A stretch of DNA of 64,000 nt from Rubellimicrobium sp. GTDB taxonomy: Bacteria; Pseudomonadota; Alphaproteobacteria; Rhodobacterales; Rhodobacteraceae. The stretch lies in contig JACFNP010000005.1 in NCBI GenBank assembly GCA_019454835.1, forward strand, positions 1 through 64,000, written 5' to 3'. Below are positions 31,801-47,149 of the stretch, piece after piece (the first letter of the stretch is position 1; each line of letters starts with the position of its first letter). Under the pieces are notes generated by a model that saw nothing but the letters and a program-made list of their open reading frames with translations, was not told the origin of the DNA and ran no database searches. Position numbers and translations under genes: made by a program.

Positions 31801-34800
31801 GGGCGACGGCGCCTTCGGCATCCTCGCGCAGAGCGTGGGCGGCGGCGGCGGCAATGGCGGCATGGCGGTGAACCTGACCCTGTCGGGTCTGGCCTCGCTG
31901 AAAGACCCGGTCTCGCAGCTTAGCCGCGTGGCGCTGGGCGGTTCGGGCGGCACCGGCGCGGACGGCGGCGACGTGACGGTGACGAACAGCGGCAGCATCT
32001 ATGTCGGCGGCGACAACGGCTATGGCATCCTTGCCCAGTCGGTCGGCGGCGGCGGCGGCAATGCCGGGCTGTCGGTCTCGACCTCGCTGCTCTCGGTCGC
32101 GGACAGCATCTTCAACACCGCCCTTGGCGCCCGCGACGGCACCAGCGGCACCGCCGGAAAAGTCACGGTCCACAGTACCGGCGACATCATCATGGAGGGT
32201 GCGGGCGGGCAGGCGATCCTGGCGCAGTCGGTGAACGGCGGCGGCGGCAATGTGGACGTGTTCCTCGACTTCGCCCCGGTGGGCGAGGAGCCGGAACCTG
32301 GGTCGGACGTGACCGACATTCTCTACAACCTTGCCATGGGCGCGGTCGGCCTGAAGGCCGGTGCGGCGGGCAGCGATGTGTCGCAGACGCATACTGGCAA
32401 CATCACCTCCACAGGCGCGGGGTCTGCCGGGTCACAGATCCAGAGCATTGGCGGCGGTGGCGGCAATGCCCGGCTGACGGTTCTGGGCACCGGCGACAAC
32501 GGCTTCGACTTCAGCGCGGTGCTGGGCGCGGTGGAAACCGACAATGCGGGCGGCGGCAATCTGGGCGGCAGCCATACCGGCAACATTTTCACCACGGGCG
32601 GACAGTCGACCGGCGCGCTTGGCCAGAGCATCGGCGGCGGCGGCGGCAGCCTGCTGCTGGCTGCATCGGGCGGCACCGGCAAGGTGACGCTGGGGGCCGA
32701 TCCGTCCTATTTCAACGCGGGCGGCGCGATAGACCGCAGCTTTGACGGCAATGTCACGACATCGGACGTGCGGTCCATCGCGCATCTGGTGCAGTCCATC
32801 GGCGCGGGCGGCGGACTCGTCCTCTCGACCGGGCTGGATCATCTCTACACCACCATCGGCGCCACCGACGGCTCGACCGGCGACGGCGGTGCGGTCACCT
32901 ATGCGATCACCGGCGACGTGCTGACCTTTGGCGAGCGTTCGCACGGCGTCGTGCTGCAAAGCATCGGCGGCGGCGGCGGCATGGTGCTGAGCGATCTTGC
33001 GCCCGGCGCGGTGACCGTCACCCCGAGCAGCAACAACGGCGGCAGCGGCGGCGCGATCACGCTGACCAGCAGGGGTCATGTCGCGGTCGAAGGCGCCGAT
33101 GCGGTCGGCATCCTTGCACAAAGCCTTGGCGGCGGCGGCGGCAGCGTCGATGCGGTGTTCCGCGGCAGCGCGGGCGGCGCGGGGTCCGGCGGCGCGATCA
33201 GCCTGACGCAGGCCGGCAACGTCATGGCGACCGGCGAAGGCGGCATCGCGGTGATGGCGCAATCGGCCGGAGCGGACGGGGCGGGGGGCAACATCAGCGT
33301 TGCGCTGGACGGCGTGGTGATCGGCGGCAGCGGTGACGGCGAACCGGGTGCGGCTGGCGCGGCATCGGGCGGCACGGCGGCCATCGTCATCGACGGCGGC
33401 GCGACCAATACCGTCACGCTGGGCGCGGACAGCTTCCTCATGGCGCTGAACGACCGCATCCTGAGCGGTGGCGCAGGCGACGAGGCCGTGACGCTGCAGG
33501 GTGGCGGGGTCGGCAATGTCGATCTGGGCGGCGGCGTGAACAACTTCACCATCGCCAAAGACGCCAGCTTCACCGCGCTCGACCGGGTGCTGCTGGGCGA
33601 CGACGGGCTGTGGCAGGTGAACGGCAACCTGTTCCTGGGAGGCGCGGCGTATCTGACGGAGGAACCGCTGTCCTACAACATCGGGTCGGAAGCCTTCGGC
33701 GTCACCACACTGGTCAGCCAGACCACCACGGTCACCGGCGAGCTGAAATTCACCAGCACCGCCACCTATTCGCCCGATGTCTATTTCCTGCAAAGCGGCG
33801 CCTACGGCGGCCTGAGCGACCTCATCAACGTCTCGGGCGATGCCACCATCGCCGGGACGGTGAAGCCGCAACTGCGCCTGCTGGAACGCACCCTGCCGCT
33901 GGTCATCATCGACACCGACGGCACCAGCGACGACACCGGCACCACCGTCATCGGCACCCCGGTCCTGACCTACACCATCGGCCTGAACGGCCCGACCGGC
34001 GACGGCAGCACCATCGATCTGCTGGTGTCGGCCGATTTCACCATGGACGGCATGACGAACAACCAGCGCCGCACCGCGCTCCAGTTCAACCATATCCTCG
34101 AGGGGCAGGGCTCGCAGGCGATGGGGCCGATGTTCACCCTGATCGCGCTGATGGAGGACGAGGCCGACATCATCGACGCCATCGACCGGCTCGGCTCCGA
34201 GGACTATGCCGCCACGCTGGTCGAAGCGCGCGGGGCGCTCTTGCAGTTCTCGGACGAGATGCTGACCTGCGAGCGCGAATTGCCCGAGGGCGGCTGCTCG
34301 TGGCTGCGGTTCCAGGGGCATGAGCTGACCTACGGCGCCAATGACGAATGGCGTGCGCTGGGGTCGCATTCGCGCGGGCTGTCGGGCGGGGTGCGGGTGC
34401 CGCTGCGCGATGATCTGGCCATCGGCCTCGGCGCGCGGATCGAGGAATTCACCATGACCAGCGGCGAGCGTTTTCGTGCCGAAGGCGCGCGGCTGTCGCT
34501 GGGGGTCTCGCTGATGCGGACGGTCGGGCCATGGACGATCTACGGCATGGCGACCGGCTCGAGCGGCAGCTACAAGACCGAGCGCGTCATCGGCATCAGC
34601 GGTGCGCTGATCGACGGCATCCCGGTCGAGGCGGGCACCGTCACCGCGCGGCAGGAGGTAACCTCGCTGAACCTGCGCGCGGGCGTGACCTATGACGCCG
34701 ATCTCGGGCGCGGCTTCTACCTGCAACCCGGCGTGCGGCTTGACGCGACGCATCTTCATTCCGCCGCCACGACCGAGGCGGGCAGCGACTTTGGCCTCGT

Positions 34801-35146
34801 GCTGGCCGGGACCGGCGAATGGGTGACGACGCTGACTCCGTCGGTCGAGTTCGGCTTCGGGCAGGCCACGGCGTCGGGCGGCAACCTGCGGGCCTACGGG
34901 CGGCTCGAGGTCAGCCTTGCCGACCGCGACAGCCTGTTCATCAACGCGACCTTCCCCGGCGCCAGCATGGCGGACGGGCTGTTCACGAACGACAGCCAGT
35001 TCGGCCGCGAGACATGGCGCGCCGAGGCGGGCGTGACCTACACCAGCGGCGACGGCAGCCGGTTCGTGAATGCCGCCGTCCGCCACGAATGGGGCGACCG
35101 GGGTTCGGCGGATTCGCTGAGCATCAGCGCCGGGTTCAGATTCTGA
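22889..35146 (+). CDS. Giant glycine-rich autotransporter adhesin (4085 residues)
   Basis: One unbroken frame of 4085 codons. Residues 1-32 are a signal peptide (cleavage after AYA). A proline-rich segment and a small non-repeat domain run to about residue 150. The passenger then carries about 47 recognisable repeats of roughly 55-80 residues, each marked by GI(L/F)AQS(V/I)GGGGGNGG and a preceding ETxG turn, the pattern of a long beta-helix. Two inserts break the rhythm: a charged helical one at 28856-29065 (DDFERKLRGLFGDGVMNEL) and a Ser/Gly/Asn one at 29760-29940. The last 300 or so residues are the translocator barrel, ending in GFRF, with two cysteines before it (LTCERELPEGGCSWLRF). It should be secreted by the type V route and displayed at the cell surface. 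Substrate or partner is unknown. The very repetitive DNA could be misassembled in copy number. Confidence 0.9.
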   Translation: MRGCARHDLRRNLRSTISLFAVLLWLGAPAYADDPPPPPAPSATSTMGQEVTNPATGDPTTVSGFLYDPAGTPTAGNVAFVRTADGYTFLVKTANQTFYNNDTPPVAYHIDSISSSGVATVTVTSAVEGQDTLPTFTMATVMNAETYTAYFVSTGSPGEVTPAVNVTGPDGVQQVVTGNGGSNGHAGALVVPPGSGGRGQDGPGQTVTLNADVNATTRHGWEVGSVGGKGGNGGNSYLNVWSGRPGGDGGAGGTVNATQGASSDIVTSGANHYGIFAYSRSGRAGNGGSGYGAPGGGQGGHSSDGGSVTVNQYGHIQTSGDASHGIFALSVSNNGGDSGSQWGLGGSSSAGGTGGNGGAVNVITHGGATILTTGDFAVGILGQSVGGTGGSAGSSNNLIVSLPGSGAMGGTGGTVSITNGGTIETQGLGSHGILAQSLGGSGGSGGGAWGLVALGGQGDAGGSGSAVTVTNGATGSILTGGAGAYGILAQSIGGSGGSGSNAGGLVAIGGNGAGAGNGAAVTVSNLGRIETTGERARGIVAQSIGGGGGDGGNTGGMVSVGGRGGAGGAGGAVSVTNDGVIVTAGDDATGILAQSVGGGGGNGGSAGAVGAFVGVAVGGTGGSGGNGGEVTVALTDTDATQPSSIRTEGDRAYGVIAQSVGGGGGNGGGAVSVAVGYIGAAAVAVGGSGGSGGAGGKVTLTGGGATSIQTGGADSIGVLAQSVGGGGGNGGYAVSVALAGGETVAAGLAVSVGGSGGSGGAGGNVLAGTLTGTALTGAGLEGSVLTTGERSAGVVLQSVGGGGGNGGLSVAVSGAAAGAVAGNVSVAVGGAGSVGGAGGEVRGRIDADVTTKAGYSTGILAQSVGGGGGNGGGSIAAGISGAGAGAGAISVGVGGAGASASSGGLVELIAGGDTIRTEGAFSTGIIAQSIGGGGGNGGYSVAASAAGAGTGAGAINVGLGGAGGGGGAGGNVTATVSANVTTLGANSGAILAQSVGGGGGNGGFNVTAGIAGAGTGAGAISVGLGGAGGAGGHAGTVTATVTGNVETTGARSAGVVAQSIGGGGGNGGFSVSAAGAGAGTGAGAVAVGLGGGGGTGGNAASVTADVSGTILTRGFASGGLVAQSIGGGGGNGGFSVDAALSGAGTGAGAVGVGLGGSGAGGGAGGSVTATARDAIETQGASSAGFLAQSVGGGGGAGGFNVTAGAAGAGTGAGAIGVGLGGSGAGGGAGGKVTATANGTILTDGFASAGFIAQSIGGGGGSGGFNVSAAIAGAGEGAGAISVGLGGSGGGGGNGGTVTATTTSGVETHGAASVGILAQSVGGGGGSGGFDVSAGVAGAGESAGAISVGLGGSGAGGGSGGSVTLDVTNDVRTQGAYSGAVIAQSIGGGGGSGGFNVSGAGAGAGTGAAALGVGIGGGGGAGSSGGAVTSHVTGTLVTAGAHSGGLLVQSVGGGGGSGGMNISGALSFAGTGSGAVAVGIGGWGGAGGTGGVVGSTYAGETSTTGAWAPGLVAQSIGGGGGNGGMNIASSISVAPDVSVGVSIGVGGFGGSGGAAGNVTHDATGHVRTAGADSTGVLTQSLGGGGGNGGMNVSGSVTLAKDAGAAIGIGIGGFGGGGADAGASTQASFTGGVRTAGARSSAIITQSIGGGGGNGGIDIAGAVNLSKGSGGAATFGLGGFGGGAGNGGAVTSRVTAGTTAGDAFVTLGDHSTAILAQSLGGGGGVGGLNVSGAVNVTGQSGAAVALGVGGFGGGGGNSAAVTLDVTGDVATFGNRSDGVVAQSLGGGGGNGGVNISGAVDLSKPGGGSNAFSVAIGVGGFGGDGGDAGNVHLGYTGTLVAQPRTLDSNGNVTGVVNAGQASGLIAQSVGGGGGNGGINVSAGVTINNKPGSGQSSGQSYAVLVGLGGFGGGGGDAGNVDVAVGAGSTIVAHGIGASGIFAQSVGGGGGNGGLNVSGGIVSDSSFIAGVGGFGGDGGTAGDVSVTARADITVSTDPAAIVDPDAIDDFERKLRGLFGDGVMNELVNSAVDGIDSLVASKGLRGLFVDLGLLRGDAPPETEGSAGLLAQSIGGGGGNGGLNVSGGIALSRDGDIPSITFGIGGFGGAGNTSGDVTVVQEGTITVAGNWKHGILAQSIGGGGGNGGLNVSGQLNWEGSGKSNGATDLSIVAGLGGWGGGGARAGDVSVTSTGAITTNGYHARGIFAQSIGGGGGTGGINVTAVGAKDSSPVAIGVGGFGGSGDDAGNVIVLRGTADAAAGRILTNGNGSHGIEASSIGGGGGDAGVNAVIGVSKTSGSSSGGGGGGSGERNVPTNTGVDDSVISNYNAVLDQLEGRTGTAPSGGGSSNSTNSAVIAVGGSAGNAGNGGTVEVTEFGDIETLGERSHGIIAQSIGGGGGNAAMNLGLIFELGEKGGNRGFGLAVGGAGGEGGTGGAVTVSHTGDILTHGQESWGIFAQSVGGGGGNASWDSLTQGGEGGNIGIVIGREGGTGGAAGDVSVTSNGQVVTIGDRSHGIFAQSIGNGGGNSGTVGVTVGRAGTEDRTGNTLGMKVGLQGGTGGSAGAVSVTADGLVFTHGDDARGIFAQSVGGGGGTGGAAGGGAAGANANSYSISVGGTGGSGGLSGPVTVTSLANIGTLGARSEGIFAQSVGGGGGTGGAVSSGLTVTSEIVTNVKGSATGTTVSVNIGGSGGSGMHGGAVTVSSAGRIGTAGEGSHGIRAQSVGGGGGDSGLVENRIVNLRSEIDTTVNFSIGGAAGSGAAGGAVGVTNTGGILTAGDRAAGIVAQSVGGGGGNAGHVQNIIVGAEAANSTRNAFLIGGAGGTGGTGGAVTVTNEAAASIWTLGAESYGIFAQSVGGGGGSGSDVQNFSVVTKGSGDTAQSLNLAIGGSGGTGGAGGLVAVTNAGLIHTEGARAHGILAQSVGGGGGNGGTTITGTVRLKPGTEADPSLALALGGSGGTGGVGGTVNVANSGTIEVLGDGAFGILAQSVGGGGGNGGMAVNLTLSGLASLKDPVSQLSRVALGGSGGTGADGGDVTVTNSGSIYVGGDNGYGILAQSVGGGGGNAGLSVSTSLLSVADSIFNTALGARDGTSGTAGKVTVHSTGDIIMEGAGGQAILAQSVNGGGGNVDVFLDFAPVGEEPEPGSDVTDILYNLAMGAVGLKAGAAGSDVSQTHTGNITSTGAGSAGSQIQSIGGGGGNARLTVLGTGDNGFDFSAVLGAVETDNAGGGNLGGSHTGNIFTTGGQSTGALGQSIGGGGGSLLLAASGGTGKVTLGADPSYFNAGGAIDRSFDGNVTTSDVRSIAHLVQSIGAGGGLVLSTGLDHLYTTIGATDGSTGDGGAVTYAITGDVLTFGERSHGVVLQSIGGGGGMVLSDLAPGAVTVTPSSNNGGSGGAITLTSRGHVAVEGADAVGILAQSLGGGGGSVDAVFRGSAGGAGSGGAISLTQAGNVMATGEGGIAVMAQSAGADGAGGNISVALDGVVIGGSGDGEPGAAGAASGGTAAIVIDGGATNTVTLGADSFLMALNDRILSGGAGDEAVTLQGGGVGNVDLGGGVNNFTIAKDASFTALDRVLLGDDGLWQVNGNLFLGGAAYLTEEPLSYNIGSEAFGVTTLVSQTTTVTGELKFTSTATYSPDVYFLQSGAYGGLSDLINVSGDATIAGTVKPQLRLLERTLPLVIIDTDGTSDDTGTTVIGTPVLTYTIGLNGPTGDGSTIDLLVSADFTMDGMTNNQRRTALQFNHILEGQGSQAMGPMFTLIALMEDEADIIDAIDRLGSEDYAATLVEARGALLQFSDEMLTCERELPEGGCSWLRFQGHELTYGANDEWRALGSHSRGLSGGVRVPLRDDLAIGLGARIEEFTMTSGERFRAEGARLSLGVSLMRTVGPWTIYGMATGSSGSYKTERVIGISGALIDGIPVEAGTVTARQEVTSLNLRAGVTYDADLGRGFYLQPGVRLDATHLHSAATTEAGSDFGLVLAGTGEWVTTLTPSVEFGFGQATASGGNLRAYGRLEVSLADRDSLFINATFPGASMADGLFTNDSQFGRETWRAEAGVTYTSGDGSRFVNAAVRHEWGDRGSADSLSISAGFRF

Positions 35147-35838: not shown

Positions 35839-36534
35839 TCAGTCCAGCCGCCCGGCGGCGCGCTTCATGCGGATGAAGCTCATCGAGATGTGGCTGCGGT
35901 GGATCAGCGTCGCCGACCGGATGTCGCCGATGGCAAGCGGGCGCAGCACCTCGCCGACCTCGTGCTGGAATATCCGCGCCTCGGTGGCAACATCGACCTC
36001 GCCCGCCGCCATGGTTTTCAGCCACAGCCGCGAGGTCTGGAAGAACAGCCTCTCGCTGAAGACGCGCAGCGGCGCGTTGGTGGTGATCTGGTGGAACGCC
36101 CGGAAGAAGGCGAGGTTCAGTTCCCCGAAGCGGCGGCCTTCCGGGGCGGGGCTGTCGGCCAGTTCGCCCAGAAGGTCGCCGATCTCCTGCATCCGCGCCC
36201 AGAGTCCGGCATCGGGCTGCTGCGGCCCGAGGCGGCCCAGAAGGTCGGCCAGTTCGAGCCGCAGCTCGTAGACCGGCACGAGTTCCTCGAGGCTGACCTC
36301 GGTGACGAAGGTGCCGACGCCCTGTACCGACTGAAGCAGCCCCTCGCCCTCAAGCCGCACCAGCACCCGGCGCAGGGGCGTGCGGCTGACGCCGAATTCC
36401 TCGGCCAGCGCCTGTTCCGACAGCCGCGCGCCGGGCGGATAGTCGAGCAGGCAGATACGGGTCTGCAGGTCGGTGTGAATCCGCTCGAAGCGGTCGCGGG
36501 CGGTCTCGGGCTGCGGGGGGGAATCCAGGTCCAT
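35839..36534 (-). CDS. GntR-family regulator (FadR/FCD type)
   Basis: 231 residues from the ATG at 36534. N-terminal winged helix (GARLSEQALAEEFGVSRTPLRRVLVRLEGEGLL), then an all-helical FCD-type ligand domain (VYELRLELADLLGRL, FHQITTNAPLRVFSERLFF). It is the last gene of the left-going ectoine operon, four bases after the transporter gene. The usual ectoine regulator EnuR is a MocR-type fusion, so this is a different class. The palindromes TTGTGCACAA in the divergent promoter region fit the FadR-type operator shape TnGT...ACnA and are the likely targets. A longer reading from 36597 overlaps the previous gene. Confidence 0.86.
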   Translation of the reverse strand: MDLDSPPQPETARDRFERIHTDLQTRICLLDYPPGARLSEQALAEEFGVSRTPLRRVLVRLEGEGLLQSVQGVGTFVTEVSLEELVPVYELRLELADLLGRLGPQQPDAGLWARMQEIGDLLGELADSPAPEGRRFGELNLAFFRAFHQITTNAPLRVFSERLFFQTSRLWLKTMAAGEVDVATEARIFQHEVGEVLRPLAIGDIRSATLIHRSHISMSFIRMKRAAGRLD

Positions 36535-36538
36535 GCCG

Positions 36539-37450
36539 CTACCCGGTCGCCCGCGCGACGAGTTGCACGCCGCCGACCGACAGGGCCAGACCTGCAAAGG
36601 CCAGCAGGCCCATCGGCTCGCCGAGGATCAGCCAGGACATCGCCATCGCGAGCGGCGGCACCAGATACATGAGCGACGACAGCCGCGTGGCGTCGCCCCG
36701 CTGGATCAGGGCGATGAACAGGCCGATGGCGATGACGGAATTGGCGAAGGTCAGATAGGCCAGCGACAGGACGAGTTCGGGCTGCCAGTCGGCCACCATC
36801 GTTTCGGACAGCCATGCCACGGGCAGCAGGATTGCAAAGCCGACCGCATATTGCACGATCCCGCCGACGACCGGGTCGGTCTTCATGCCGTGCCATTTCT
36901 CGAACAATGTCGCCCCGGAAATCCCCGCCAGCGCCCCGAGCGCCAGCAGGATCGCCACCGACGGGCTGGGGCCGAGCGCGCCTTGCGAGGCGACGACCAG
37001 CACCACGCCCGCAAAGCCGATGCCGATGCCCGTCCACAGCAGCCAGCCGCTGTGGCCCTGTCCCAGAAGCGGCAGCACGGCGGCGACGACGGCGGGTTGC
37101 AGCGCCATGATGATCGCGGTGGTGCCCGCGTTCATGCCCTGCTTCATGGCGAAATAGGCAAGGCCGAAATAGACGCACTGGATCAGAAAGCCCGTCACCG
37201 CGATGGCGCCCCAGTGGCGGGCGGATTTCGGCCAGACCGGGCGATGCAGGAACAGGAACGGCACCAGCGCCAGCACCGCCAGCGCATAGCGCCAGACCAG
37301 AAGGGTCAGAGGTTCGATATAGTCAAGACTGAGCTTGCCTATCGGGTAGCCGCCCGACCAGAAGATCAGGAAAATGAAAGGCGCGGCCCGCCAGAACAGC
37401 GCCGTGAGGGGCGGTTCCGTGACGGGTGCCGGGATCGCCCCCTGCGTCAC
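36539..37450 (-). CDS. EamA/DMT family transporter
   Basis: 303 residues with ten hydrophobic segments in two EamA halves (FIFLIFWSGGYPIGKLSLDY at the start, GATLFEKWHGMKTDPVVGG opening the second half). It starts at a GTG that overlaps the deacetylase stop, so it is cotranscribed with the ectoine hydrolase. Drug/metabolite transporters often export amino acids or metabolites. Here export of a pathway intermediate or extra uptake is possible, but nothing in the sequence names the solute. Confidence 0.87.
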   Translation of the reverse strand: MTQGAIPAPVTEPPLTALFWRAAPFIFLIFWSGGYPIGKLSLDYIEPLTLLVWRYALAVLALVPFLFLHRPVWPKSARHWGAIAVTGFLIQCVYFGLAYFAMKQGMNAGTTAIIMALQPAVVAAVLPLLGQGHSGWLLWTGIGIGFAGVVLVVASQGALGPSPSVAILLALGALAGISGATLFEKWHGMKTDPVVGGIVQYAVGFAILLPVAWLSETMVADWQPELVLSLAYLTFANSVIAIGLFIALIQRGDATRLSSLMYLVPPLAMAMSWLILGEPMGLLAFAGLALSVGGVQLVARATG

Positions 37451-38604
37451 CCCAGCCTCTGCGTCAGATGCCCGAGCATGTCCAGACAGCGCCCCAACTG
37501 GTCGAGCGACAGATATTCGTCGGGCTTGTGCGCCTGCGCGATCGAGCCGGGGCCGCAGATCACCGCATCCATGCCAAGGGCCTGGAAGATGCCAGCCTCG
37601 GTGCCGAAGGGGACGGTGCCTGCCTCGTCCGCGCCGGTCAGCGCCAGCATCAGGTCGCGGGCCGCGTTGGTGTCCATCGGGATCAGGCCGTCGACCTCGC
37701 CCACCACTTCGGTGACGATGTCGGCGGCGGGGCTGGTGGCGCGCATCGCGGGCAGCAGGTCATGCGCGCACAGCTCGCGCAGGCTGTCCTTGACGAAATC
37801 GGCGTCGCCCGCCTGCACCGGCCGCATCTCCCAGTCGATCCGGGCGCGGCCGGGGATGACGTTGTGTGCGACGCCGCCCTGCAGCGCGCCGGTGTTGATC
37901 GTGGTCCAGGGCGGATCGAAGCGGTTCGAGGCCGGGGCGCGGGCCTTCAGCGCCTCGCGCAGCTCCAGCAGCCGCGCGACGTAACGCACCGCATATTCGA
38001 CCGCATTCACGCCGCGATCGGGGGCCGAGCCGTGGCCCTCCAGCCCGGTGAAATGCACCGAATATTCGTAGCAGCCCTTGTGCCCCTCGATCACCTGCAT
38101 GAGCGTGGGTTCACCGATGATGGCGACCGAGGGCAGCGCCTCGCGCCCGCGCAACAGCGGCGCCAGCGCCTGCGCGCCAAGGCAGCCCACTTCCTCGTCA
38201 TGGGTGAAGGCGAAATGCACCGGGCGCCGGGTCGCCGCCTGCGCAAAATCGGGCGCCATCGCCACGGCGGCGGCGATGAAGCCCTTCATGTCGCAGGTGC
38301 CGCGCCCGAACAGCCGCCCGTCGCGTTCCACCATGGCGAAAGGGTCGGTGGTCCATGCCTGATCGGTGACCGGGACCACGTCCGAATGACCCGACAGCAG
38401 GATGCCGCCCGGCGCATCAGGGCCGATGGTGGCCCAGAGATTGGCCTTGGTGCCGCTGGCGTCCTGCTGCATCTCGACCCGCGCCCCTGCCGATGACAGG
38501 GCATCGGCAAGGAACACGATCATCTCGAGGTTGCTGTCCGAGGATACCGTCGGAAAGGCGACCAGCCTGCCCAGCAGATCGACGGTCTCGCGCAAACGGT
38601 CCAA
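37447..38604 (-). CDS. argE: M20 family deacetylase, ArgE-like, in the position of N-acetyl-diaminobutyrate deacetylase
   Basis: 385 residues starting at a TTG three bases after eutD. The M20 metal ligands are all visible: GHSDVVP, GRGTCDMKGF, THDEEVGC, GEPT and the C-terminal HKPDEY. Close to ArgE (N-acetylornithine deacetylase) by size and motifs. In known ectoine operons the step after EutD is done by EutE/DoeB, an aspartoacylase-type enzyme, which is missing in this window. N-acetyl-diaminobutyrate is one carbon shorter than N-acetylornithine, so this enzyme is a plausible replacement. That is inference. The alternative is a true ArgE placed here by chance. Confidence 0.87.
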   Translation of the reverse strand: MDRLRETVDLLGRLVAFPTVSSDSNLEMIVFLADALSSAGARVEMQQDASGTKANLWATIGPDAPGGILLSGHSDVVPVTDQAWTTDPFAMVERDGRLFGRGTCDMKGFIAAAVAMAPDFAQAATRRPVHFAFTHDEEVGCLGAQALAPLLRGREALPSVAIIGEPTLMQVIEGHKGCYEYSVHFTGLEGHGSAPDRGVNAVEYAVRYVARLLELREALKARAPASNRFDPPWTTINTGALQGGVAHNVIPGRARIDWEMRPVQAGDADFVKDSLRELCAHDLLPAMRATSPAADIVTEVVGEVDGLIPMDTNAARDLMLALTGADEAGTVPFGTEAGIFQALGMDAVICGPGSIAQAHKPDEYLSLDQLGRCLDMLGHLTQRLG

Positions 38605-38607
38605 GGG

Positions 38608-39792
38608 TCAATCCTTCACGAAGAGCTTGCGCTCCACATCGCCCAGCACCTCGGCGGCGCCGCTGTCACGGATGAGAATCGTTTCTGTGTTCTCGATCCC
38701 CCAGTCATCCATCCACAATGCGGGCATGAAATGGAAGGTCATGCCCGGTTGCAGGACGGTGGTGTCCTCGGCCCGGATCGAGGCGGTCCGCTCGCCCCAG
38801 TCGGGCGGATAGGAGATGCCGACCGGATAGCCCATGCGCCCCTGCCGGGGGATGCGGTATTTCTCCATCACCGCCATGAAGGCGTTCGAGATGTCGCAGG
38901 TCCGGTTGCCCGCGCGCGCGGCGTCAAGCCCGGCTTCGATCCCTTCAAGCTGGGCCTTCTCGACCTCGCGCACCCGCGCGGGCGGCTTGCCCAGATAGAC
39001 CGTGCGGCACAGCGGCGCATGGTAGCGGCGATAGCAGCCGGAGAGTTCAAAGAACGTGGCCTCGCCCGATTTCATCGGCGCGCCGTTCCAGGTGAGATGC
39101 GCGGCGGTCGCGTCCACGCCCGAAGGCGTCAGCGGCACGATGGCGGCGTAATCGCCCCAGTCGTCGCCGACGCCGGTGATGGCGGCATGGAAGATGTCGG
39201 CCACCAGATCGTTCTTGCGCACGCCGGGGGCGGCGCGGTCGATGGCGGTGCGGACGATCTTCGAGGAAATCTTCGCCGCCTTGCGGATGAAGGCGATTTC
39301 CTCGTCCGATTTCAGCAGCCGCTGCCAGTTCACCAGCCCCGTGGCGTCGGGAAAGCTGGCGTTCGGCAGTTCGGCCTGCAGGACGGCATGGGCCTTGGCC
39401 GAGTAGTAATAATTGTCCATCTCGACGCCGATGCGCGCCCGATCCAGCCCCAGATCGCGCAGCACGCGGGCCAGGTCCTGCATCGGGTGGCGCACGGTCG
39501 ATTGCACGTAGTCGTCGTGGTAACCGTGGATCGAATTGCGCCCGATCCAGCAGGTCCGCCCGGCGCCGATGGCATCCATGTTGCGCCCCCACCAGTGCGG
39601 CTCACCGGCGCCGGTCAGGATCACCCCCTGATGGACGTAGAACGACCAGCCGTCATAGCCGGTCAGCCAGGCCTGATTCGACGGGTCGGTGACGAAGACC
39701 GCATCAAGCCCGGCCTCCTCCATCGCGGCGCGCGCGCGGGCCAGCCTGCGGGCATATTCGGCGGGGCTGAAGGGGATGTCAGGCACGCTCAT
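38608..39792 (-). CDS. eutD: EutD/DoeA, ectoine hydrolase (M24 family)
   Basis: 394 residues from the ATG at 39792. It follows Halomonas DoeA closely as I remember it, with DPSNQAWLTGYDGWSFYVHQ near residue 37, GVEMDNYYYSAKAH, VNWQRLLKSDEEI and YPVGISYPPDWGERT. The enzyme opens the ectoine ring to N-acetyl-L-2,4-diaminobutyrate in the cytoplasm. It leads the left-going operon eutD-argE-eamA-gntR and is divergent from ehuB. A palindromic operator lies about 20 bases upstream of its start. Confidence 0.94.
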   Translation of the reverse strand: MSVPDIPFSPAEYARRLARARAAMEEAGLDAVFVTDPSNQAWLTGYDGWSFYVHQGVILTGAGEPHWWGRNMDAIGAGRTCWIGRNSIHGYHDDYVQSTVRHPMQDLARVLRDLGLDRARIGVEMDNYYYSAKAHAVLQAELPNASFPDATGLVNWQRLLKSDEEIAFIRKAAKISSKIVRTAIDRAAPGVRKNDLVADIFHAAITGVGDDWGDYAAIVPLTPSGVDATAAHLTWNGAPMKSGEATFFELSGCYRRYHAPLCRTVYLGKPPARVREVEKAQLEGIEAGLDAARAGNRTCDISNAFMAVMEKYRIPRQGRMGYPVGISYPPDWGERTASIRAEDTTVLQPGMTFHFMPALWMDDWGIENTETILIRDSGAAEVLGDVERKLFVKD

Positions 39793-39813: not shown

Positions 39814-39823
39814 TTGTGCACAA
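39814..39823. promoter_or_regulatory. Operator TTGTGCACAA, eutD side
   Basis: A perfect palindrome (12 bp with flanking G and C) immediately downstream of the -10 TATAGC (plus 39826-39831) of the eutD promoter, so it would cover the start of transcription. It is identical to the ehuB-side site. Confidence 0.7.
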
Positions 39824-39825
39824 CC

Positions 39826-39831
39826 GCTATA
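39826..39831 (-). promoter_or_regulatory. -10 element of the eutD operon
   Basis: TATAGC on the minus strand. The best -35 is weak (TTCTTG at 18 bp), as expected for a regulated promoter. Confidence 0.35.
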
Positions 39832-39889
39832 TCGAAACCTGCAACCCGGCAAGAATTTCCCTTGCTGCATGTGCGAAAGAGAATTTTTC

Positions 39890-39928
39890 TTGACGCATTG
39901 GGTCTGAGATGTGACTTCTTGTGCACAA
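39890..39928 (+). promoter_or_regulatory. ehuB promoter region with second operator TTGTGCACAA
   Basis: TTGACG (39890-39895) is a good -35, but no convincing -10 follows at 16-18 bp. The operator (39919-39928, 12-bp palindrome with flanks C and G) lies where transcription would start. Its centre is exactly 105 bp from that of the other operator. Confidence 0.6.
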
Positions 39929-39975: not shown

Positions 39976-40818
39976 ATGACCTCGACGGTCAAGACCCTGA
40001 TCACAGCCGGTTTTGCCCTGGGCGTGTCCGCAGCCGCAGTCATGGCCGGGCCGCTCATGGACCGGATCGACGCGGGCGATTCGATTCGCATCGGCTTCGC
40101 CAACGAGATTCCCTTCGCCTATGCCGACGAGGCGGGCAATGCGGCGGGCTTCGTCAACGCGATGACGCTCGATATCCTGCAGAACATGGGCTACACGAAC
40201 ATCGAGGCGGTGCAGACCGAATGGGGCGGCCTCATTCCCGGCCTCAATGCCGGGCGGTTCGACATCGTCACCGGCGGCATGAACATCCTCGCCTCGCGCT
40301 GCGAGAACATGGCGTTTTCCGAACCGATCGCCACCATCGGCGACGGTTTCATCGTCGCGCCGGGCAACCCCAAGGGTCTTGAGACCTACGAGGGCATCCA
40401 CGAGGCGGGCGCCACGCTGGTGACCGGCGCGGGCTATTCCAACATCGAGGCCGCCAAGGCCGCGGGCATGACCGACGCCGACATCATGATCGTGCCCGGC
40501 CCGACCGAAATCCTTGCGGCCGTGGTCGCGGGCCGCGCCGATGCGGGCACCGGCACCTATTTCACCATGGCCCAGCTTGCCGCCAGTTCCGACGGCAAGG
40601 TCGAGGTGACCGACCCCAACGCGCTGCCCGAGGAAACCTTCAACTGGGCGGGCATCGGCTTCCGCTTCGAGGACCAGGACTTCCTCGATGCGTTCAACGC
40701 CGCGCTGGCCGACTATATCGGCTCTGACCAGATGATGGCCTCGGTGGCACAATACGGCTACACCGAAGACACGCTGCCCGGCGACCGCGAGACCGCCTGG
40801 GTCTGCGAGAACCGCTGA
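39976..40818 (+). CDS. ehuB: EhuB, ectoine/hydroxyectoine-binding protein
   Basis: 280 residues from the ATG at 39976 (GGGAGAGAGAA upstream). Signal peptide, then a polar-amino-acid-type binding protein: IRIGFANEIPFAYADEAG, WGGLIPGLNAGRFDIVTGGM, and a cysteine near the C-terminus (WVCENR). Together with EhuC, EhuD and EhuA it imports ectoines, as in Sinorhizobium. Its place opposite eutD and ahead of eutBC secures the assignment. Two tandem hairpins after the stop probably set it above the permease genes in expression. Confidence 0.92.
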   Translation: MTSTVKTLITAGFALGVSAAAVMAGPLMDRIDAGDSIRIGFANEIPFAYADEAGNAAGFVNAMTLDILQNMGYTNIEAVQTEWGGLIPGLNAGRFDIVTGGMNILASRCENMAFSEPIATIGDGFIVAPGNPKGLETYEGIHEAGATLVTGAGYSNIEAAKAAGMTDADIMIVPGPTEILAAVVAGRADAGTGTYFTMAQLAASSDGKVEVTDPNALPEETFNWAGIGFRFEDQDFLDAFNAALADYIGSDQMMASVAQYGYTEDTLPGDRETAWVCENR

Positions 40819-40914: not shown

Positions 40915-41580
40915 ATGTCGATCTGGGACTTTCTGCTGCAATTCGGCGGGCGCCTGACCAGCGGGACGCTCTACACCGTGGCGCAGTTCCTGCTTGCCTC
41001 GGTCGTGGCCATCGTCTTCGCGCTGCTGTCCGGTCTGGGCAAGCTGTCGCGGAACCGCGCGATCCGCTGGGCCTCGATCATCTATATCGAGATCTTTCGC
41101 GGCACCTCGCTGCTGGTGCAGCTTTACTGGATCTACTTCGTCCTGCCGCTGTTCGGCCTGACCCTGCCGAAATTCGTCGCGGGCTTCCTGTCGGTGGGGC
41201 TGAATATCGGCTCCTACGGGGCCGAACTGGTGCGCGGCGCGATCCAGTCCGTGCCGCGCGGCCAGTGGGAGGCCGCCTATGCGCTGTCGATGTCGCCCGC
41301 GAAACGCATGATCCGGGTGATCCTGCCGCAGGCCTTCGTCATCATGCTGCCGCCCTGGGGCAACCTGCTGATCGAGCTGCTGAAAGGCACGGCGTTGGTG
41401 GCGCTGATCTCGGTCACCGACCTGATGTTCGAGGCCAAGCAGATCAACGGCTCCACCTTCCTGTCGGTGCAGGCCTTCGGCTCGGCGCTGGTGATCTATT
41501 ACATCCTTGCCCGGTTCCTCATCACGCCCTTCATGCGCTGGTGCGAACGCGCCATGGCCCGAAAGCTGAGCCGGACATGA
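40915..41580 (+). CDS. ehuC: EhuC, ectoine ABC permease
   Basis: 221 residues, a HisM/ArtM-type permease with about five membrane segments. The signature loop is GAELVRGAIQSVPRGQWEAAYALSMS, split by the EAA motif, and IEIFRGTSLLVQLYWIYFVLP near residue 57 is typical. It pairs with EhuD. The stop overlaps the ehuD start. Confidence 0.92.
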   Translation: MSIWDFLLQFGGRLTSGTLYTVAQFLLASVVAIVFALLSGLGKLSRNRAIRWASIIYIEIFRGTSLLVQLYWIYFVLPLFGLTLPKFVAGFLSVGLNIGSYGAELVRGAIQSVPRGQWEAAYALSMSPAKRMIRVILPQAFVIMLPPWGNLLIELLKGTALVALISVTDLMFEAKQINGSTFLSVQAFGSALVIYYILARFLITPFMRWCERAMARKLSRT

Positions 41581-42245
41581 GCTTTCAGTGGAAATGGGAG
41601 TTCACCTGGGCAATCCTGCCGCGCCTGATGTGGGCGACGGTGAATACGCTGCTGGCGTCCGGCATCGGCTATGCCATCGCCATGGTGCTGGGGCTGGTGT
41701 TCGCGCTGCTGCTGCGCACCGGCTGGAAGCCGCTGACCCTGCCGCTGCGCGAGGCGATCGAGTTCATCCGCTCGACCCCGCTGGTCCTGCAAATCTTCTT
41801 CGTCTTCTACGTCGGCCCGCAGTTCGGCGTGCGGCTGTCGCCATGGGTCTCGGGCATGATCGCCATCGGCCTGCATTATTCGTGCTACCTGTCCGAGGTC
41901 TACCGCGCCGGGATCGAAGCCGTTCCCCGCGGCCAGTGGGAGGCCGCCCGCGCGCTGAACATGTCGACCCGCGACACCTACATGCGCATCGTCATTCCGC
42001 AGGCGCTGCCGCCGTCGATTGCCGGGATGGGCAATTACCTCGTCGGCATCTTCAAGGATACGCCGATGCTGTCGGTGATCGGGGTGGCCGAGCTGATGCA
42101 GACCGCCAATGCCATCGGCTCGGAAACCTACCGCTTCCTTGAACCCTACACCCTTGTCGGGGTGATCTTCCTGCTGCTCTCTCTGCCCACGGCGGCGTTC
42201 ATGCGCCAGTTCGAGGCCTGGGTGCGGCGCAAGCTGGGAATGTGA
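41577..42245 (+). CDS. ehuD: EhuD, ectoine ABC permease
   Basis: 222 residues, the second HisM-type permease. Recognisable blocks are EFIRSTPLVLQIFFVFYVGP and the coupling loop SEVYRAGIEAVPRGQWEAARALNM. ATGA overlap with ehuC. The stop overlaps or nearly touches the ATPase start. Confidence 0.92.
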   Translation: MSFQWKWEFTWAILPRLMWATVNTLLASGIGYAIAMVLGLVFALLLRTGWKPLTLPLREAIEFIRSTPLVLQIFFVFYVGPQFGVRLSPWVSGMIAIGLHYSCYLSEVYRAGIEAVPRGQWEAARALNMSTRDTYMRIVIPQALPPSIAGMGNYLVGIFKDTPMLSVIGVAELMQTANAIGSETYRFLEPYTLVGVIFLLLSLPTAAFMRQFEAWVRRKLGM

Positions 42246-42247
42246 CC

Positions 42248-43060
42248 ATGGAGATGTCCGCCTATCCGCTGGAACTGCCGGAAGATGACCGCCCGATGGT
42301 CCGCTTCATGAACGTGACCAAAAGCTACGGCGCATTGACCGTGCTCGACCAGTTGAACCTCGACATCACGCGCGGCGAGATGGTGACCGTGATCGGCCCG
42401 TCGGGGTCGGGCAAGACCACCGTGCTGCGGATGCTGATGACGCTGGAGACCATCAACGGCGGCGTGATCTATGTGGACGGCAAGCCGCTGACCCATATGC
42501 CGAAGAACGGCGTGCTGGTGCCTGCGAACGAACGCTACCTGCGCAAGGCGCGTTCGATGATCGGCATGTGTTTCCAGCATTTCAACCTGTTCCCGCACAT
42601 GACCGCGCTGCAGAACTGCATGGAGGGGCCGGTGCAGGTGCTGGGCCTGCCGAAGGCCGAGGCCCGCGCACGGTCCGAGGAACTGCTGGAAATGGTCGGC
42701 ATGATCGACAAGAAGGACCAGTATCCCTCGCGCCTGTCGGGCGGCCAGCAGCAGCGGGTGGCGATTGCCCGCGCGCTGGCGATGCGGCCGAAGATCATGC
42801 TGTTCGACGAGGTGACATCCGCGCTTGACCCCGAGGTGATCGGCGAAGTCACCAACGTCATTCGCAAGCTGGTGAACGAACACGACCTGACCATGTTGAT
42901 GGTCACGCACCAGATGGGATTCGCGCGCGACATTTCCGACCGCGTGTGTTTCTTCTACCAGGGAAGGATCGAGGAACAGGGCGAGGCCGAAGCCTTCTTC
43001 ACCAACCCGCAGCGCGAGCGCACCAAGCAGTTTCTCTCGGCGGTAAAGGCGGCGGACTGA
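42248..43060 (+). CDS. ehuA: EhuA, ectoine ABC ATPase
   Basis: 270 residues from the ATG at 42248 (a GTG at 42242 overlapping ehuD is the alternative). Walker A GPSGSGKTT, signature LSGGQQQRVAIARAL, Walker B IMLFDEVTSALD and the H-loop MVTHQMGFA place it in the GlnQ/HisP class. It energises EhuCD. It overlaps eutB (TGATG). Confidence 0.92.
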   Translation: MEMSAYPLELPEDDRPMVRFMNVTKSYGALTVLDQLNLDITRGEMVTVIGPSGSGKTTVLRMLMTLETINGGVIYVDGKPLTHMPKNGVLVPANERYLRKARSMIGMCFQHFNLFPHMTALQNCMEGPVQVLGLPKAEARARSEELLEMVGMIDKKDQYPSRLSGGQQQRVAIARALAMRPKIMLFDEVTSALDPEVIGEVTNVIRKLVNEHDLTMLMVTHQMGFARDISDRVCFFYQGRIEEQGEAEAFFTNPQRERTKQFLSAVKAAD

Positions 43061-44064
43061 TGCGCCCTTCCTTGGCCGATGTGTTCGCCGCAAGGCAGGT
43101 GATCGCCGGGGTGGCGGACCGCACGCCGCTGGTGCCTTCACCCTTCATGTCGGCGCGCAGCGGGCACGACTTCCTGCTGAAGCTGGAAATCTGTCAGCCG
43201 ATGGGCGCGTTCAAGCTGCGCGGCGCGCTGAACGCCATGGCGGCGCTGCCTGCGGACACGCGCGGCGTCACCTGCTGCTCGACCGGCAACCACGGCCGCG
43301 CGGTGGCCTTTGCGGCGGCGCGGCGGGGGCTGCGGGCGGTGGTCTGCATGTCGCAACTGGTGCCCGAGGCCAAGGTCGCGGGCATCCGCGCGCTGGGCGC
43401 CGAGGTGCGCATCTCGGGCCGCACGCAAGACGACGCGGCGGTTGAGGCCGCGCGGCTGGCGCGCGACGAGAGGCTGGCCGAAATCCCGCCCTTCGACGAC
43501 CCGCATGTGATCGCGGGGCAGGGGACCATCGGGCTGGAGGTGATGGAGGCCCGCCCCGACCTGACCGCGCTGCTGGTGCCTCTGTCGGGCGGTGGCCTCA
43601 TGTCCGGGGTGGCGCTGGCGGCGCGCGCGATCCGGCCCGGCATCCGCATCATCGGCGTGACGATGGAACGCGGCGCGGCGATGGCGCAGGCGCTGCAGGC
43701 CGGACATCCGGTCGAGGTCGGCGAATATCCCTCGCTCGCCGACAGCCTTGGCGGCGGCCTGGGCGATGACAACCGCCTGACCTTTGCCATGTGCCGCGAT
43801 CTGGTCGACGAGGTGGTGCTGGTCTCGGAGGAGGAAATCCGCGACGCCATGCAGGCGCTGTTCCACGAGGACCGGATCGTGGCCGAAGGCGGCTCGGTGA
43901 CGGGGCTGGCGGCGGTGCTGGCGGGCAAGGTGCGGCTGGACGGCCCGGCGGCGACGATCATCACCGGGCGCAACCTCGACATGCGGATGTTCGCGGCGAT
44001 GATGGCCGGGCAGGACGTGACCATCGGCGACATGGTGCTGAAGGGGCGCGTCTATGGCGCATGA
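43060..44064 (+). CDS. eutB: EutB, hydroxyectoine utilisation dehydratase-like PLP enzyme
   Basis: 334 residues of the serine/threonine dehydratase fold. The PLP lysine is in MGAFKLRGALNAM, the phosphate loop in SGGGLMSGVALAA, and STGNHGRA is the Asn-Gly loop. In ectoine loci EutA, EutB and EutC act together to turn 5-hydroxyectoine into ectoine. EutA is not found here. Position right after ehuA and overlapping eutC makes the call firm, though the sequence alone would say only threonine-dehydratase-like. Confidence 0.88.
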   Translation: MRPSLADVFAARQVIAGVADRTPLVPSPFMSARSGHDFLLKLEICQPMGAFKLRGALNAMAALPADTRGVTCCSTGNHGRAVAFAAARRGLRAVVCMSQLVPEAKVAGIRALGAEVRISGRTQDDAAVEAARLARDERLAEIPPFDDPHVIAGQGTIGLEVMEARPDLTALLVPLSGGGLMSGVALAARAIRPGIRIIGVTMERGAAMAQALQAGHPVEVGEYPSLADSLGGGLGDDNRLTFAMCRDLVDEVVLVSEEEIRDAMQALFHEDRIVAEGGSVTGLAAVLAGKVRLDGPAATIITGRNLDMRMFAAMMAGQDVTIGDMVLKGRVYGA

Positions 44065-45040
44065 CATCCAGATCGTCACCGAGGCCGAACTGCGCGCGCT
44101 GGTCCCGCTGGACCTGCGGCTTGTCGACGTGATCGAGGCGGCCTTCGCGGCGCTGGCCGGTGACGGCGTGGTGATGCCGCCGATCCTGTCGATGGACCTG
44201 CCCGGCGCCAATGCCGAGGTCGATGTGAAAACCGCGTATCTGCCGGGCTTCGACGGTTTCGCGATCAAGGTCAGCCCCGGCTTCTTCGACAATCCGGCGC
44301 TGGGCCTGCCCAGTCTCAACGGGCTGATGATCCTGTTTTCGGCGAAAACCGGGCTGGTCGAGGCGCTCTATCTCGACAACGGCTATCTCACCGACCTGCG
44401 CACCGCCGCCGCCGGGGCGGTGGCCGCGCGGCATCTGGCGCCCGCGCAGGTGGAAACCGCAGGCATCATCGGCACGGGCGTGCAGGCACGTTTGCAGGCC
44501 CGCGCGGCGCATCTGGTGCGGCCCTTCGCGCTGGTGCTGGTCCATGGCCGCGACATGGACAAGGCCCGCGCCTGCGCCGCCGATCTGGCACAGGCGCTGG
44601 GGGTGCGGGCCGAGGCGGTGGGCGACGTGCAGGCGCTGGTGCGCGACAGCCAGTTGGTCGTCACCACCACCGCGGCGCGCGCGCCGCTGATCCGCGCCGA
44701 CTGGCTGCATCCCGGCCTGCACATCACCGCCATGGGCGCCGACCAACCCGGCAAGAACGAGATCGACCCGCGCGCGCTGCTGGCCGCCGATCTTTATGTC
44801 TGCGACCGGGCGCAACAGGCCGAAGCCTCGGGCGAACTTGAATCCGCGCTGGCCGCAGGGCTGTGGGACCGGGGCCGTCCGGTGGAACTGGGCGAGATCG
44901 TGACCGGCCGGCACCCCGGCCGCCCCGGCGCCGATGCGGTGACGATCTGCGACCTGACCGGCACCGGCGCGCAGGACACCGCGATTGCCAGCCATGTGCG
45001 GGCGCTGTTCCCCGACGCCGGGGCGGTGATCCATGCCTGA
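44054..45040 (+). CDS. eutC: EutC, ornithine cyclodeaminase-like ectoine utilisation protein
   Basis: 328 residues of the ornithine cyclodeaminase/mu-crystallin family: NAEVDVKTAYLPGF near residue 55, NGYLTDLRTAAAGAVAARHLA, the Rossmann GIIGTGVQA, and ITAMGADQPGKNEIDP. It overlaps eutB by 11 bases. In this pathway it works with EutB in hydroxyectoine conversion. It could also be read as a plain cyclodeaminase without the context. Confidence 0.9.
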   Translation: MAHDIQIVTEAELRALVPLDLRLVDVIEAAFAALAGDGVVMPPILSMDLPGANAEVDVKTAYLPGFDGFAIKVSPGFFDNPALGLPSLNGLMILFSAKTGLVEALYLDNGYLTDLRTAAAGAVAARHLAPAQVETAGIIGTGVQARLQARAAHLVRPFALVLVHGRDMDKARACAADLAQALGVRAEAVGDVQALVRDSQLVVTTTAARAPLIRADWLHPGLHITAMGADQPGKNEIDPRALLAADLYVCDRAQQAEASGELESALAAGLWDRGRPVELGEIVTGRHPGRPGADAVTICDLTGTGAQDTAIASHVRALFPDAGAVIHA

Positions 45041-45082
45041 GCGGGGGGCAGAGGGCGGCAAGGCGCGCCCTTGGCGGCGGCC

Positions 45083-45559
45083 ATGAAGCTCGACGACCGC
45101 GACATCGCCATCCTGCGCGTGCTGTCACGCGAGGGCCGTATCACCAAGACCGCGCTGGCCGAACGGGTCGGCCTGTCGCCGACGCCCTGCTGGGAGCGGC
45201 TGCACAAGCTGGAACGCGCCGGGCTGATCGAGGGCTACCGCGCCGAGATTTCCCTGCGCAGGCTGGGGCCGCATGTGACGGTGTTCGTCGCCTGCGAGAT
45301 CGCCGACCACACCGCCGCCAGCTTCCGCGCCTTTGAATCCGCCGTGGCCCGCCATGACGAGATCACCGCCTGCTGGGCCTTGGGTGGCGGGTTCGACTAT
45401 CTGCTCCAGATCGTCACCCGCGACATCGACGCCTATCAGCGCCTGATCGACGCGCTGCTCGATGCCCGCATCGGGCTGGCGCGCTATTTCACCTATATCG
45501 TCACCAAGCCGGTGAAGGCCCCCGGCACGATTCCCTTCGACGCCCTGCTGGGCGAGTGA
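45083..45559 (+). CDS. Lrp/AsnC-family regulator (DoeX-like)
   Basis: 158 residues from the ATG at 45083. N-terminal helix-turn-helix (LDDRDIAILRVLSREGRITKTALAERVGLS) and the AsnC ligand domain (GGGFDYLLQIVTRDIDAYQRLID). In ectoine operons such a regulator (AsnC/DoeX) sits between the ring-opening genes and ssd, exactly as here. A 15-bp palindrome 24-38 bases after its stop may be its own binding site. Confidence 0.9.
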   Translation: MKLDDRDIAILRVLSREGRITKTALAERVGLSPTPCWERLHKLERAGLIEGYRAEISLRRLGPHVTVFVACEIADHTAASFRAFESAVARHDEITACWALGGGFDYLLQIVTRDIDAYQRLIDALLDARIGLARYFTYIVTKPVKAPGTIPFDALLGE

Positions 45560-45597: not shown

Positions 45598-45673
45598 CCT
45601 GTGGCGCCGGTTTCAGCCTCGGTCTCTGCGCGCTCGCGCGACAATGCGCCTGCCGCAGCAGACGAGGACCGCC

Positions 45674-47149
45674 ATGCTCGACAGTGCCATTTCCGCCCGC
45701 CCCGAGATCGCCGACAAGCGCCTCGTGCGCAGCTTTGCCTATGTCGGCGGGCGCTGGGTCGCTGCCGCTTCGGGCGCGACCTTCCGCGTCACCGATCCGG
45801 CGACCGGGCAGGAACTGGGGCAGGTGGCAAGCCTGTCTGCGGGCGAATCCGGCGCTGCAGTCGATGCCGCGCAGGCCGCATTCCCGGACTGGGCGCATCG
45901 CCTGCCGCAGGACCGCGCGGCGCTGCTGCGGCGCTGGTTCGAGCTGATCGTCGCGCATCGTGACGATCTGGCCCGGATCATGGTGCTGGAACAGGGCAAG
46001 CCGCTGTCCGAAGCTTTGGGCGAGATCGACTACGGCGCAGGCTTCGTCGAATTCTACGCCGAAGAGGCCCGCCGCCCCAATATCGAGGGCGTCACCAGTC
46101 ATCTTCCCGATGCCGAGGTCGAGGTCTGGCGCGAACCCGTGGGCGTGGCCGCGCTGATTACCCCGTGGAACTTTCCCATGGCGATGCTGACCCGCAAGGC
46201 CGGTGCCGCGCTGGCCGCCGGTTGCACCGTGGTCTGCCACCCGTCCGCCGAGACGCCGTTTTCGGCGCTGGCGCTGGCCGAGCTGGCCGAACGCGCCGGG
46301 CTGCCTGCGGGCGTATTCAACGTGGTGACAGGCAAGGCCGCCACCGTGGTCGAACCCTGGACCGCCGATCCGCGCGTGCGGGCGCTGTCCTTCACCGGGT
46401 CAACCGAAGTCGGACGGCTGCTTTACCGCCAGTCCGCCGCCACGGTGAAGCGGCTGGTGATGGAACTGGGCGGCCATGCGCCAGTGCTGGTCTTTGCCGA
46501 TGCCGACATGGGCAACGCCGTCGCCGAAACCATGAAGGCCAAATGGGCCACCACCGGACAGGATTGTCTGGGTGCGAACCGCATCTATGTCGAACGCCCG
46601 GTCTATGCCGACTTCTGCCGCCGGTTCGTGCAGGCCACCGCCGCGCTGACCCTTGGCCCCGGCATGGAGGACCCCGATCTTGGCCCGCTGATGAACGAGC
46701 GCGCGGTGGCCAAGCAGGAAGAACATGTCGCCGACGCGCTGGCGCGCGGCGCACGGCTGGCCTGCGGCGGCAGGCGCAGCCCGCTCGGGCCGTTGTTCTA
46801 CGAACCGACCGTGCTGACCGACGTGCCCGAGGATGCGCTGATCCTGCACGAGGAAACCTTCGGCCCGGTTGCCGCGATCCTGCCCTTCGACACCGAGGAC
46901 GAGGTGACCGCCCGCGCCAATGCCACCGAATACGGGCTGGTCGCCTATCTGCACACGCAGGACCCCCGCCGCATCTACCGGCTGAGCCGCGCGCTGCAAT
47001 TCGGCATGGTGGCCGTGAACCGCACCAAGGTCACCGGCGCGCCGGTCCCGTTCGGGGGCATGAAGCAGTCCGGGCTGGGCCGCGAAGGGTCGCGGCACGG
47101 TTTGGAAGAGTTTACCGAAATCAAGTACATCTGCCGCGACTGGGCATGA
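45674..47149 (+). CDS. Ssd/DoeC-like NAD-dependent aldehyde dehydrogenase
   Basis: 491 residues from the ATG at 45674 (GAGGA upstream). PWNFPMAM near residue 165, catalytic Glu in MELGGHAP and catalytic Cys in GQDCLGANRI, and the C-terminal PFGGMKQSGLGREGS are those of succinate-semialdehyde dehydrogenases. In ectoine loci this enzyme oxidises aspartate semialdehyde to aspartate, the last step. It is followed 16 bases later by the transaminase gene. Confidence 0.9.
   Translation: MLDSAISARPEIADKRLVRSFAYVGGRWVAAASGATFRVTDPATGQELGQVASLSAGESGAAVDAAQAAFPDWAHRLPQDRAALLRRWFELIVAHRDDLARIMVLEQGKPLSEALGEIDYGAGFVEFYAEEARRPNIEGVTSHLPDAEVEVWREPVGVAALITPWNFPMAMLTRKAGAALAAGCTVVCHPSAETPFSALALAELAERAGLPAGVFNVVTGKAATVVEPWTADPRVRALSFTGSTEVGRLLYRQSAATVKRLVMELGGHAPVLVFADADMGNAVAETMKAKWATTGQDCLGANRIYVERPVYADFCRRFVQATAALTLGPGMEDPDLGPLMNERAVAKQEEHVADALARGARLACGGRRSPLGPLFYEPTVLTDVPEDALILHEETFGPVAAILPFDTEDEVTARANATEYGLVAYLHTQDPRRIYRLSRALQFGMVAVNRTKVTGAPVPFGGMKQSGLGREGSRHGLEEFTEIKYICRDWA

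Follow-up and report, generated by a model that had tools for sequence, protein, structure and literature searches.

Whole-turn spacing of paired palindromes between divergent ectoine operons suggests co-operative repression by an FCD-type GntR regulator

In Rubellimicrobium sp., two sets of ectoine genes diverge from an intergenic gap in which the same palindromic word occurs twice, and the question is whether the two copies act together across the DNA between them. The window analyzed here comprises 64,000 nucleotides (contig JACFNP010000005.1, assembly GCA_019454835.1). Re-reading the sequence places both copies of TTGTGCACAA where an earlier note, made from the sequence alone, had put them, and agrees with it that each site is a 12-bp perfect palindrome if one flanking base pair is included, and that the centers of the two sites are 105 bp, or ten turns, apart (Table 1). 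The description of the two sites as identical needs qualification: the 10-bp cores are the same, but the 12-mers differ (GTTGTGCACAAC and CTTGTGCACAAG).

The flanking genes are also as had been stated, with eutD and eutE to the left on the minus strand, and ehuB and further ectoine genes to the right. The left operon has the order eutD, eutE, EamA transporter gene and, as last gene, gntR; on the right, ehuBCDA is followed by eutBC, asnC/doeX, ssd and atf. The assignments of eutD and ehuB are based on NCBIfam models. Outside the ectoine genes, the plus strand carries a 4085-aa open frame (22889-35146) with many GGGGGNGG-like repeats and a beta-barrel-like C-terminal end, which looks like a giant autotransporter; a Pfam scan of this frame gave no match at E 0.001. 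It is directly followed by a gene for an IalB-domain protein (PF06776; 35160-35684, plus strand).

Table 1. Features of the divergent ectoine operons and of the DNA between them (positions in the window)
Feature	Position	Strand	Basis or remark
FCD/VanR-type GntR regulator, presumed operator reader	35839-36534	-	PF00392, PF07729; upstream TTG start at 36597 possible
EamA/DMT-type transporter	36539-37450	-	
eutE/doeB, M20 deacetylase	37447-38604	-	
eutD/doeA, ectoine hydrolase	38608-39792	-	TIGR02993 568.7 bits, under cut-off 613
Operator 1 (TTGTGCACAA)	39814-39823	.	adjoins eutD; same promoter-relative place in relatives
Predicted eutD promoter -10, TAGCGG	39824-39829	-	sequence and profile of 77 relatives
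Predicted eutD promoter -35, TTGCCG	39847-39852	-	sequence and profile of 77 relatives
95-bp spacer holding both predicted divergent promoters	39824-39918	.	
Predicted ehuB promoter -35, TTGACG	39890-39895	+	sequence and profile of 81 relatives
Predicted ehuB promoter -10, weak	near 39913-39918	+	sequence and profile of 81 relatives
Operator 2 (TTGTGCACAA)	39919-39928	.	adjoins ehuB; conserved in relatives
ehuB, ectoine-binding protein of ABC importer	39976-40818	+	TIGR02995 over cut-off
ehuC	40915-41580	+	ORF; ehuC and ehuD sit between ehuB and ehuA
ehuA, importer ATPase	42242-43060	+	TIGR03005
eutB	43060-44064	+	
eutC	44054-45040	+	
asnC/doeX, Lrp-type regulator	45071-45559	+	
ssd/doeC	45644-47149	+	
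atf/doeD	47166-48539	+	

Within the window, the chance test of the 10-mer is weak, as two occurrences with at most one mismatch were also found in 18 of 100 shuffles, and we therefore used the whole genome instead. The two copies between eutD and ehuB are the only exact ones in the 2.87-Mb genome, against an expectation of 0.74 genome-wide and of 4.5e-5 in the eutD-ehuB intergenic gap, and the backwards control does not occur at all. The looser word WTGTRYACAW is found in five places in the genome, two of which are these sites.

The note had assigned one site to the likely start of eutD and the other to that of ehuB, and profiles of relatives aligned on the sites speak for this placement. On the eutD side they show TTGCC near -28 and TA..GT just before the operator, and on the partner side CTTGACA at about -26 to -21. 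Judging by the position of these -35 and -10 profiles relative to the sites, each of the two divergent promoters has an operator lying over its predicted -10/start region.

Which protein reads the sites? The note had named the FadR-type GntR regulator encoded at the end of the eutD operon. This protein is indeed an FCD-type GntR protein, with PF00392 (66.7 bits) and PF07729 (28.2 bits) both over their cut-offs in a Pfam scan, but the structures nearest to its model (pLDDT 95, six C-terminal helices) are VanR-type and not FadR itself: McbR (Z 21.7), AlkR (19.5), PmiR (19.0) and Atu1419 (15.6). Many FCD proteins, though not all, have a metal site of Asp or Asn and three His; at the metal-site positions of PmiR, a profile alignment shows Phe in place of one His, no His in the EHH segment, and the last His retained. 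An identity as EnuR (MocR/GabR-type) was considered and rejected, since the Pfam scan shows no PLP aminotransferase-like domain.

Relatives of the FCD-GntR protein were found in 29 of 295 genomes of the family, in 34 of 390 in the search of the order, and in 12 of 385 in the search of the class. The named set comprises 80 loci with such relatives, of which 79 were used for counts of neighbors and sites. The sites travel with the regulator gene: ectoine genes lie at most 6 kb away in 77 of the 79 loci, a full WTGTRYACAW site occurs at least once within 8 kb in 72, and in 54 there are two such sites with a spacing of 60-150 bp; altogether, 138 strong sites were observed where 5.3 were expected. 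This sequence evidence makes the FCD-GntR protein the likely reader of both operators. In four loci (L068, L072, L150 and L159, on G439 C22 and G561 C9), a MocR-type gene with about 38% identity to the MocR protein of a Leisingera ectoine cluster directly adjoins the FCD-GntR gene, so that two ectoine regulators are possibly placed side by side.

The ten-turn distance had been taken by the note as a hint of a DNA loop, and the relatives bear out the phasing, which is conserved in about 80 loci from 7 to 13 turns. We took the two best sites within 380 bp upstream of eutD, chosen blind to their mutual distance, and dereplicated at 85% identity of the site-to-site stretch, which left 81 loci from Rhodobacterales and several other alphaproteobacteria, 64 of them with two full sites. 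Spacings among the 81 cluster near whole turns, from 8 to 13. For the 64 loci with both sites full, phasing at 10.5 bp gives R = 0.73 with a phase offset of 0.01 bp, and the best-fitting period is 10.9 (10.8 for all 81). Their spacings fall into 82-86 bp (16 loci), 93-97 bp (6), 103-108 bp (32), 115 and 118 bp (2), 124-125 bp (4) and 138-140 bp (4), and none of the 64 has a spacing of 87-92, 98-102, 109-114, 119-123 or 126-137 bp. If four further pairs are included (L172 with 73 bp, L102 with 84 bp, L107 with 104 bp and L119 with 118 bp), 66 of 68 strict pairs are at most a quarter turn from a whole number. As controls, intergenic lengths and site-to-gene distances (the latter ending at the first aligned residue, not at mapped start codons) show no periodicity, with R between 0.05 and 0.11 for 10.5 bp, and spacing and intergenic length are uncorrelated in the ten-turn class (r = 0.03).

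We placed the changes in spacing on a tree of eutD, eutE and gntR, which was built by a quick method and has some weakly supported forks. Of the independent large changes inferred on it, 11 of 13 (both sites full) or 15 of 17 (all loci) keep to the 10.5-bp phase (binomial p 0.011 and 0.001, respectively); the other changes are mostly of 1 or 2 bp. When changes of at least 3 bp were redrawn along the tree from non-periodic distributions, no more than 2 of 4000 runs reached the observed R (p <= 0.0005). Computation thus shows that the spacing is evolutionarily locked to whole helical turns. The two operators lie on one face of the helix, at a whole-turn spacing, as is expected of a pair that acts through a loop.

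Among the loci L033-L179, the divergent partner of eutD varies with lineage (ehuB, atf, eutB, asnC or eutC), and the operator pair persists. In L102, a pair 84 bp apart precedes eutB with no diverging gene, which argues for two sites acting at one promoter, as a single case in which the second site is possibly a relic. It is the one strong case of a pair before a single promoter; eutB of L119 had one site only. Elsewhere in L119 (9598-9915), eutD is apparently reduced to a short 5' fragment before gntR, and both operators are kept, 118 bp apart. In the distant relative L172 (12800-13819), the pair lies seven turns (73 bp) apart in a different divergon, in which a succinylglutamate-desuccinylase-like gene, possibly a doeB substitute, diverges from eutB.

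Locked spacing could have causes other than contact between bound repressors. The main and still live rival, which we consider doubtful, holds that each operator acts singly on its own promoter. The phasing would then stem from upstream DNA with a helical phase of its own, either UP elements or curved A/T tracts, which the back-to-back promoters share or which abut between them, and which has to face RNA polymerase on both sides. Across the 81 loci, the A/T content of the spacer has a period of 10-11 bp (z about 11 versus shuffles), and in the ten-turn class its peaks lie at distances of about 33, 43, 53 and 63 bp from the site. In the 104-106 bp class, the A/T peaks located some 33 and 43 bp upstream of either operator match UP-element positions if the start site lies within the operator, and the -35 is at a nearly fixed distance from each operator. 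The phased A/T would fit a curvature that favors looping and, equally, UP elements of both promoters, and as UP regions take up most of a long spacer, the A/T profile there does not separate the two. Against this explanation, UP regions no longer overlap at ten turns or more, and yet the ten-turn class keeps within about 1 bp of whole turns; the in-phase pair of L102, which has no divergent partner, also speaks against it, unless its second site is a relic.

Alternatively, DoeX/AsnC, as an architectural or feast/famine protein, might wrap the spacer and so need both promoters in phase, which we regard as improbable. Lrp-type proteins are able to wrap DNA, and asnC lies within the ectoine cluster of the window. 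AsnC also activates the ectoine operon in Ruegeria (PMC5924519). However, 13 of 31 genomes with the FCD regulator have no DoeX match at E <= 1e-40, and as most of these are about 99% complete and many have phased pairs, DoeX is unlikely to be the general cause. We find it slightly more improbable still that a different regulator, for instance EnuR, reads the sites, or that the spacing pattern merely reflects shared ancestry. Elsewhere, EnuR has been described as the repressor of these genes (PMC8739950), but the operator predicted for it, ATTGTn6ACAAT, differs in its gap and does not occur in the DNA between the operons; near the promoters, no match was found even with 2 mismatches allowed. 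Probing the genome with the MocR gene that adjoins the ectoine cluster of Leisingera (L184) gave a nearest MocR protein with only 34% identity, and the Leisingera cluster, which is EnuR-type, is without any WTGTRYACAW site. In the Sinorhizobium terangae locus L180, no EnuR gene was found. As for ancestry, the tree simulations take it into account.

The proposed in-phase co-operative repression by the FCD-GntR protein can be compared with several known systems. AraR of Bacillus subtilis shares the GntR DNA-binding domain, and differs in its effector domain and pathway. Its control involves DNA looping (Mota 2001, as cited in the available text of PMC4494728). The same text describes double-site divergons of the FadR subfamily in which the inter-site distance between divergent operons is constant and read as co-operative; in that part of the source, there is no mention of ectoine and no report of helical periodicity. 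Closest is Atu1419 of Agrobacterium fabrum, a VanR-type FCD-GntR repressor with two intergenic operators, for which the authors propose looping by a tetramer (PMC7797058). Its 10-bp palindrome, ATGTATACAT, has the same TGT-2 bp-ACA core and 2-bp gap, but its spacing is 190 bp, and pathway and effector are others; its zinc site consists of Asn and three His, two of which are not His in the alignment with the protein studied here, and it is a tetramer, whereas the latter is known from a monomer model. EnuR/EhuR/EutR likewise represses ectoine uptake and catabolism from two closely spaced operators, but has an aminotransferase-like PLP domain in place of FCD (PMC8739950, PMC5320631). The regulator of the window is thus different from EnuR, the described ectoine repressor, and no close relative of EnuR/EhuR/EutR was found in this genome. 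BusR of Streptococcus agalactiae, the tetrameric GntR protein of an osmolyte transporter, binds two motifs on one DNA face, and insertion of 5 bp abolishes binding; its motifs, however, are only 22 bp apart and read by one rigid ruler, and no loop was seen (PMC8517857).

Together, our data point to a model that we somewhat favor, in which the palindromes are operators of the FCD-GntR repressor, and the dimers bound to them, being on one side of the double helix, touch each other; the simplest form would be a single tetramer that closes a 105-bp loop. Co-operative in-phase action of the two operators has good comparative support, and the spacing supports same-face repression. We infer the remainder, namely binding by the FCD-GntR protein, the tetramer, the loop, repression (rather than activation) and an inducer. 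The repressor, made from the last gene of the eutD-eutE-eamA-gntR operon, would bind both operators, and since they overlap the predicted -10/start regions of the back-to-back promoters, one each, a bound dimer would block RNA polymerase. Contact between the two dimers would be the reason why the operators lie on the same helix face. The loop would shut import and catabolism together, and an ectoine-derived metabolite in the FCD domain would release both operons; acetyl-diaminobutyrate, which the note suggested as such an inducer, is an idea borrowed from EnuR, whose sensor domain is of an unrelated kind. Tetramer looping, the mechanism put forward for Atu1419, explains the data best, and the loop itself is probable, but several points count against it. 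Each operator already covers its own promoter, which would make a loop unnecessary for repression; phased A/T tracts at UP-element distances could alone force the phasing; BusR, although tetrameric, formed no loops when tested (PMC8517857); spacings of the 13-turn class (138-140 bp) miss a whole number of turns by about 2.5 bp; and some loci of the FCD-GntR set retain one clear site only.

We give an even chance to the wider proposal that an undescribed FCD-type repressor has replaced EnuR in many Rhodobacterales, and in some alphaproteobacteria outside that order, and controls ectoine import and catabolism via a loop, whose spacer carries phased, bend-favoring A/T tracts, changes almost only by whole turns, and persists through exchange of the partner gene. 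The literature searched, which covered few subscription journals, yielded no FCD regulator of ectoine catabolism and no matching report of cross-genome helical phasing in operator pairs. Repressor DNA looping in bacteria is known mostly from a few model operons and from engineered spacings. The approximately 80 natural loci are an evolutionary record of a helical-phase rule, with seven directly testable spacing classes. They also name a likely regulator of ectoine use for bacteria that have no close EnuR, which bears on the marine turnover of ectoine.
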